Positions 1 through 2,112 of a stretch of DNA of 64,000 bases are shown piece by piece. The stretch comes from Acidimicrobiia bacterium (lineage in GTDB: Bacteria; Actinomycetota; Acidimicrobiia; Acidimicrobiales; CATQHL01), in NCBI GenBank assembly GCA_009835395.1, contig VXXM01000035.1, positions 32,075 through 96,074 of the forward strand. Direction: 5' to 3'. The stretch's first letter is position 1, and every line of letters begins with the position of its first letter. The position numbers were made by a program, and so were the translations under genes. The notes beneath the pieces were generated by a model, which was not told the origin of the DNA, did not search any database, and worked only from the letters and a program-made list of their open reading frames with translations.

Positions 1-9
1 GGAGCCGCC

Positions 10-474
10 ATGAAACTCCAACCAGGCGACCCGGCGCCGGACTTCCGGCTGCTGAACCAGGACGGCGAGGAGGTGTCCCTCGAGGACTTCGCCGGTCGCA
101 GGGTGGCGCTGTTCTTCTACCCGAAGGCCATGACGCCCGGTTGAACCAAACAGGCCTGCGGCATGCGTGACATCGCCGGACAGCTTCCCGAGGAGGTCTC
201 CATCCTGGGCATGAGCGCGGATCCCCCGAACCGCCAGAAGCGCTTCGATGAGAAGCACGACCTGGGGTTCGGACTGCTCTCGGATCCCGACAACTCCACC
301 ACCTCCTCCTACGGGGCGCGCAGCGAGAAGAAGATGTACGGCAACACGTTCATCGGGACCACGCGGTCGGCCTTCCTTATCGACGCCGAGGGTCGCATCG
401 AGCAGGCCTGGTACGGCATCAGCCCGAAGGACACCCCGCTGGAGATCCTGGCGGCGCTCGAGGAGTCGGAGTGA
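10..474 (+). CDS. bcp: Bcp/PrxQ-type peroxiredoxin, probable selenoprotein (in-frame TGA at codon 45 read as Sec)
   Basis: ATG at 10 after GGAG; the frame is open to the TGA at 472-474 except for TGA 142-144. The translation MKLQPGDPAPDFRLL...FYPKAMTPG-U-TKQACGMRDI...SAFLIDAEGRI matches the Bcp motif PKAMTPGCTxQACGxRD, with the UGA at the peroxidatic Cys. Confidence 0.88.
151..184 (+). promoter_or_regulatory. Candidate bacterial SECIS hairpin downstream of the UGA Sec codon
   Basis: C159GGC162/G175CCG178 and AUG163-165/CAU171-173 with bulged C174, loop CGUGA (166-170) with G at loop position 2; outer CUG156-158/CAG181-183. The loop starts about 21 nt after the UGA. Confidence 0.7.
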
Positions 475-905
475 CCGACGGGCCGCTGCCTGCGCCCGCA
501 GCGGTCCTGCCGCACAGACCGCCGTTCCTGTTCCTGGACGAGGTCACCGCCCTGGTGCCTGGCGAGCGGGCCGAGGGCTACTGGCGCACGACCGGCGACG
601 AACCCTTCTTCGATGGTCACTTCCCCGGCCGGCCCACGCTGCCGGGAGTGTTGATGACCGAGGCCCTGGCCCAGTTGGGTGCCTACGCGGTCCTGAGCGA
701 CGAGCGCATGGCCGGCCGGTTGCCGCTGTTCGGCGGGATCGACGGGGCACGCTTCCGCCGCCAAGTGCTGCCCGGCGAGCGGCTGGACCTGCGCGTCGAG
801 GTGCTGCGCCTCTCCGCCCGCGCCGGGCGGGCCGCAGGGGAGGCCTCGGTGGACGGGAAGCTGGCCTGCAGTTGCGAGTTGATGTTCGTGGCCGTGCCCG
901 CCTGA
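471..905 (+). CDS. fabZ: 3-hydroxyacyl-ACP dehydratase FabZ/FabA-like (hotdog fold)
   Basis: LPHRPPFLFLDEV...GHFPGRPTLPGVLMTEALAQ motif; GTGA overlap with the upstream gene. Confidence 0.85.
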   Translation: MTDGPLPAPAAVLPHRPPFLFLDEVTALVPGERAEGYWRTTGDEPFFDGHFPGRPTLPGVLMTEALAQLGAYAVLSDERMAGRLPLFGGIDGARFRRQVLPGERLDLRVEVLRLSARAGRAAGEASVDGKLACSCELMFVAVPA

Positions 906-930
906 ACCGGATTACCCGGTCCTGTCGGGG

Positions 931-2112
931 CTAGGCGGCCGGGGGTGGGCTGATGACGAGGCAGCCGTTGTGCCCGCCGAAGCCGAAGGAGTTGGAGATG
1001 CTGGGACCCGGCTCCCACTCGCAGGGATCCGGCGCCAGGATGCGGATCGGCGCCATGTCCGGGTCGGGGGTCTCGTAGCACGCTGTCGGGGGCAGCACGC
1101 CGCGCTGGATGGACATGACCACGGCGGCCGCCTCGATGGCACCAGCTGCTCCGAGCGCGTGGCCGGTGACGCCCTTCGTGGAGGTGACCAGCGGCCCGGG
1201 GGAGCCGAACACCTTGTGGATCGCCTCGGCCTCGCTGGCGTCGTTGAGAGGCGTCGAGGTGCCGTGGGCATTGATGTGGACGATGTCGGACGGTGCCAGG
1301 CCGGCGTCGTCCAGCGCTCGCTCCATGCAGGCCACCGCGCCCGCCCCGCCGGGGGACGGTGCGGTGATGTGGTAGGCATCGGCGGTGCTGGCGTAGCCGG
1401 CGATCTCGGCGATGGCCTCGGCACCGCGCGCCCGGGCGTGCTCCAACTCCTCCAGCACCAGCACCCCGCACCCCTCGGCGTGCATGAAGCCGTCGCGCTC
1501 GAGATCGAACGGGCGGGAGATGCCGACCCGGGACAGCGCCGTCATGTTGGCGAAGCCCTGCAGACCGGTCGGGGAGCTCGAACACTCCGAGCCCCCGGCC
1601 AGCATCACGTCGCAGCGGCCGTGGCGGATCAGCTCGGCGGCGTTGCCGATGGACTGCGTGGCGGAGGCGCAGGCCGTGGAGGTCGACTCGCAAGGCCCCT
1701 GGTAGCCGTAGCGCATGGAGACGGCGGCGGCCGCGGCGTTGGCCATCATCATGGGGATGAGGAAGGGTGAGACTCGTTTGGGGCCCTTCACGAAGTGCGC
1801 CAGCATGCACGTCTCGATGCTCATCAGTCCGCCCACGCCGGTCCCGATCCACACGCCCACCCGGTCGGGGTCCGGCTCCAGGTCGCCGGCCTGCTCCAGC
1901 GCCTCGGCCGCGCAGGCCAGGGCGAACTGGGTGAACCGGTCGTGACGGCGCATCTCCTTGGCGTTGGCGAAGTGCGGCGCCGGGTCGAAACCCGCCACCG
2001 CGCGCAGGCCCTTGGGCGGTTCGCTCAACAGACCCGCGAAGAAATCCTCCTGCCCGATTCCGCAGGCCGCCAGGACGCCGAGGCCGGTGACGACCACCCG
2101 GCGGCGGCTCAT
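931..2112 (-). CDS. fabF: Beta-ketoacyl-ACP synthase II
   Basis: RRVVVTGLGVLAACGIG..., STACASATQSIG active site, NAHGTSTPLND, NSFGFGGHN. Confidence 0.95.
   Translation of the reverse strand: MSRRRVVVTGLGVLAACGIGQEDFFAGLLSEPPKGLRAVAGFDPAPHFANAKEMRRHDRFTQFALACAAEALEQAGDLEPDPDRVGVWIGTGVGGLMSIETCMLAHFVKGPKRVSPFLIPMMMANAAAAAVSMRYGYQGPCESTSTACASATQSIGNAAELIRHGRCDVMLAGGSECSSSPTGLQGFANMTALSRVGISRPFDLERDGFMHAEGCGVLVLEELEHARARGAEAIAEIAGYASTADAYHITAPSPGGAGAVACMERALDDAGLAPSDIVHINAHGTSTPLNDASEAEAIHKVFGSPGPLVTSTKGVTGHALGAAGAIEAAAVVMSIQRGVLPPTACYETPDPDMAPIRILAPDPCEWEPGPSISNSFGFGGHNGCLVISPPPAA

Follow-up and report, generated by a model that had tools for sequence, protein, structure and literature searches.

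Selenium peroxiredoxins of COG1225 with a TxxU motif are an established selenoprotein family that has been known for about 20 years; 43 genes are given in one report (PMC1088965) and 91 genes from 78 organisms had been counted by 2016 (PMC5029168), and the family is catalogued as COG1225 Bcp (PMC9312934). A Sec-peroxiredoxin from Eubacterium acidaminophilum, PrxU, is also on record (Sohling 2001, as cited in PMC13188914). The PrxQ of Corynebacterium glutamicum carries Cys49 as its peroxidatic and Cys54 as its resolving residue and is recycled by thioredoxin, not by mycothiol (PMC5811025). The name Acidimicrobiia was absent from the selenoproteome papers searched for it (including PMC5029168), and a full-text literature search for Acidimicrobiia together with selenocysteine returned no paper on selenoproteins as such.

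The locus described here lies at the beginning of a 64,000-nucleotide stretch of bacterial DNA (the window) and almost certainly codes for a Bcp/PrxQ-family (COG1225) peroxiredoxin that is a selenoprotein, one in which Sec would be inserted by the SelB/SECIS route, resolved by Cys50 and recycled by a thioredoxin-type reductant. With the known TxxU enzymes (PMC1088965, PMC1794560, PMC9312934, PMC5029168) it has in common the COG and Pfam family, the motif (T-P-G-U here), the predicted peroxidatic role of Sec and a SECIS-like element just 3' of the UGA, and it differs from them in its host, an uncultured bacterium of an Acidimicrobiia-type lineage. The features of a selenoprotein peroxiredoxin of this kind were found at the level of sequence, namely an in-frame UGA, the putative Sec codon, that occupies the redox Cys column in several organisms, alongside homologues with Cys. 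The likeness to PrxU lies in Sec as the peroxidatic residue; PrxU (NF040737) is, however, a different subfamily, against which the protein here scored 27.8 bits (cut-off 270). C. glutamicum PrxQ resembles it in family and in the resolving Cys at +5 (PMC5811025), and Trx/TrxR recycling is expected here as well, whereas the C. glutamicum protein has Cys49 and the one here Sec45. The novelty lies in the host lineage, by which the known selenoproteome is extended, in the several separate Sec clades in the order and in the overlap of SECIS loop and Arg codon, the latter two treated in graded terms below. The features of the locus are as follows.

1 to 4, + strand: Shine-Dalgarno-like GGAG, read directly, with the ATG 5 bases further on
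10 to 474, + strand: gene for the predicted Sec-containing Bcp/PrxQ peroxiredoxin, 154 codons and stop (from frame, profiles and relatives)
142 to 144, + strand: in-frame UGA, predicted Sec45 at the peroxidatic position (from frame, homologue column and alignment to 5enu)
157 to 159, + strand: TGC encoding Cys50, the presumed resolving residue (from frame; +5 spacing after PMC5811025)
159 to 178, + strand: SECIS-like hairpin in which 159-165 pair to 171-173 and 175-178, C 174 is bulged out and the loop is CGUGA at 166-170
471 to 905, + strand: fabZ, whose start overlaps the peroxiredoxin stop (GTGA) and whose end is an ordinary TGA

From ATG 10 to TGA 472-474 the gene forms one frame, with TGA 142-144 as the sole internal stop. 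The read-through protein matched the Bcp equivalog NF006960 over residues 2-151 (148.8 bits, cut-off 140) and PF00578 (113.9 bits, cut-off 26, E 6e-33), and it thus belongs to Bcp/PrxQ (COG1225) by a full-length profile match over the curated cut-off. Codon 45 aligned to the catalytic Cys of 5enu, a solved PrxQ/Bcp-type protein, and the active-site motif PKAMTPG-U-TKQAC fits PxxxTPG-C/U-T with a resolving Cys at +5. The GTGA overlap is real, since fabZ begins at GTG 471. A mechanical ORF list holds only 163-474 (103 aa); throughout the genomes of the group standard gene callers shorten the enzyme and drop the active site, and peroxide defence and selenium dependence are thereby invisible in annotations. 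A preliminary description of this DNA had been made from the letters, and its full-length 154-aa Bcp frame broken only by TGA 142-144 (NF006960, PF00578), its placing of that TGA at the catalytic Cys (5enu, homologue column), its overlap into fabZ and its remark that ORF callers begin at ATG 163 and lose the active site all hold, as does its statement that Sec-containing peroxiredoxins occur in some bacteria (PMC1088965, PMC9312934). Further in-frame TGA codons in the window, taken from a composition-based list, are mostly ordinary gene ends. An Rfam scan of window positions 1-1200 gave no match, a promoter scan upstream gave no consensus match, and matches in a plasmid collection were all below 60% identity, those listed being ordinary bcp.

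The hairpin just 3' of the UGA has 7 bp, one bulge, a 5-nt loop and 21 nt from UGA to loop, and as a candidate SECIS it conforms to the published bacterial model, in which the loop has 3-9 nt, the spacing is 16-37 nt and one of the two leading loop nucleotides is a G, with G or U often coming next (PMC13188914). Across 12 relatives 96% of cells were paired, against 18-69% for slid versions, with the stem register picked on Sec sequences, and two stem pairs were changed on both sides (compensatory). When folding was done with the register left free, a GU exposed in the hairpin loop was found in 23/35 Sec and 18/84 Cys sequences (p 3e-6). Of the sequences with CGN as loop Arg codon, CGU was used by 29 of 33 with Sec and by 13 of 65 with Cys (p 1e-10). 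These p values overstate independence because the sequences are related. Inside the order the corresponding counts for CGU were 19/22 and 3/22, and the bias occurs in mostly G+C-rich genes. Hairpin stability was not in excess of shuffled sequences (z +0.5 to +0.9), folding energy alone being not significant, and not all close relatives have the hairpin as their best fold.

The host encodes tRNA-Sec, SelA, SelB and SelD. The tRNA-Sec has anticodon UCA (66.5 bits), selA (396 bits) adjoins selB (294 bits, SelB winged-helix domain present), and selD scored 360 bits. SelD itself contains a UGA, in MTYRLTQYSHGAG-U-AGKLG (HGAG-U-AGK; C77:5943-6881, locus 1492-2550 in L196), as does the formate dehydrogenase alpha subunit FdhA, in GSNNIDSCNRT-U-HAPS (C28:73457-75364, minus strand), both at classical Sec sites. 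Selenoproteins in the genome thus number at least three (Prx, SelD, FdhA). FdhA profile positions 1-49 matched elsewhere on the same contig (C28:59936), and either a short N-terminus of the gene or a rearrangement of the region may lie behind this. Bacteria commonly read through UGA at a low level, and a near-cognate tRNA (e.g. for Trp or Cys) or a reassigned code, in place of Sec insertion, could in principle account for the reading of this UGA; yet UGA is not reassigned, as the preliminary description had noted, because the adjoining fabZ terminates in TGA at 905. In Prx, SelD and FdhA the UGA is confined to columns of redox Cys, tRNA-Sec (UCA), SelA, SelB and SelD are all there, and the sequence after the UGA shows SECIS-like constraint, which leaves such readthrough highly improbable.

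Sec insertion is further favoured by the co-occurrence of tRNA-Sec with the TGA gene in the order: tRNA-Sec was present in 60/99 genomes, namely in 23/25 with a TGA-Prx against 37/74 of the others (Fisher p 1e-4). The two TGA-Prx genomes without tRNA-Sec above cut-off (G005 and G078) both have selB above cut-off. A looser tRNA-Sec search in both gave nothing convincing, the best match in G078 reaching 46.3 bits (cut-off 47), and the two absences are probably assembly gaps, a divergent tRNA-Sec being another possible reading for G078. Another genome, G098, carries two tRNA-Sec genes (C125:2208-2303 and C66:13136-13227), both with anticodon UCA, which could reflect duplication or contamination. 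In the host genome the machinery sits on other contigs than the peroxiredoxin gene; a binning error is conceivable but made unlikely by the recurrence across the genus.

Among the 99 genomes of the order searched, all eight of the genus (8/8) and the sister genus encode the protein with exactly one stop, a TGA, which throughout the genus (8/8) is in the same codon. In more than 100 mapped homologues the codon at column 45 was TGA, TGC or TGT and no other; six additional TGA-bearing homologues likewise have it at column 45, and internal in-frame stops in the family, among those checked, were all TGA and all at the peroxidatic column. Records of TGA homologues come from Acidimicrobiia/Actinomycetota, Desulfobacterales, Myxococcota, Planctomycetota and Chloroflexi. 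dN/dS was 0.113 downstream of the TGA and 0.105 upstream, and the downstream part is therefore translated and needed. Conservation in 8/8 of the genus, the low downstream dN/dS and the confinement of family stops to one column mean that the TGA is not there by chance. A pseudogene or sequencing error would need one base change from TGC or TGT, and the assembly is fragmented (95 contigs, 94% complete); against this stand the identical TGA in eight independent genus members and several phyla, purifying selection after it, complete Sec machinery, the loop codon bias and the lack of unrelated stops or frameshifts in genus members. An error in a single assembly is already refuted, and this explanation as a whole is less probable still than readthrough by another tRNA. 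Equally improbable are two products, a 44-aa leader and a 103-aa protein from the in-frame start ATG 163, given that the shorter form would have neither the active site nor the initial segment of the thioredoxin fold, that selection before the TGA is equally strong and that the part upstream belongs to the same domain. Of the checks that the preliminary description had proposed, those on selA, selB, selC and selD, on other selenoproteins such as formate dehydrogenase, on the Bcp homologue column and on signs of a pseudogene in relatives have all come out in favour of a Sec codon. UAG-coded Sec, prompted by five homologues flagged for TAG (G017, G024, G037, G073 and G078), was ruled out: these carry TGC at the column, the TAG being their terminal stop, and the anticodon was UCA in 50/50 tRNA-Sec loci examined.

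The closest relatives include Acidimicrobiia records and, judging from isolate codes, appear to be sponge symbionts. SelA and SelB have been reported as frequent among the genomes of sponge symbionts from several phyla (PMC5649159), an observation with which the predicted Sec-peroxiredoxin is consistent and for which it would provide one concrete selenoenzyme.

A Sec step at UGA 142-144 is strongly supported by the comparisons above, and we infer actual Sec insertion, catalysis and the use of thioredoxin as reductant. In the proposed cycle SelB with Sec-tRNA(UCA), bound at the hairpin, would place Sec at residue 45; the Sec45 selenolate would attack a peroxide, either H2O2 or an organic one, Cys50 would resolve the selenenic acid to a selenenylsulfide, and this would be opened by a thioredoxin-type reductant. 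By analogy, the protein is probably an atypical 2-Cys-type peroxidase with U45 peroxidatic, C50 resolving and thioredoxin recycling. The preliminary description had instead coupled Sec insertion with mycothiol-type redox chemistry; the Sec part stands on machinery, column and conservation, but the mycothiol part is weak, the best MshC match in the genome reaching 417 bits (cut-off 485) and C. glutamicum PrxQ using thioredoxin (PMC5811025).

A quick tree built from 118 homologues shows at least seven changes between Sec and Cys, three of them forced by well-supported branches, far below the count with shuffled labels; the clade of the window (genus and sister genus) is entirely Sec. Tentatively, and with somewhat less than even confidence, we propose that the order holds at least three separate Sec clades, including one with the motif WWYPKAxTPG-U-T, and that in most of these clades the SECIS apical loop lies within a conserved Arg codon (CGU) at Sec+8. 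If true, Sec peroxiredoxins would be more than an occasional exception in the order, and the shared loop and codon would be a fixed dual-coding solution that may ease Cys/Sec exchange in PrxQ.

The WWYPKAxTPG-U-T sequences (L137, L138, L140, L142, L143, L145, L146) form a second Sec peroxiredoxin clade in the order; a SECIS-like stem with loop CGUGAYC is present, and the resolving Cys at +5 is missing in 6/7. The +5 Cys is also replaced in the Sec-PrxQ homologues L023, L029, L032, L043 and L134, which suggests a different resolving partner in these proteins.
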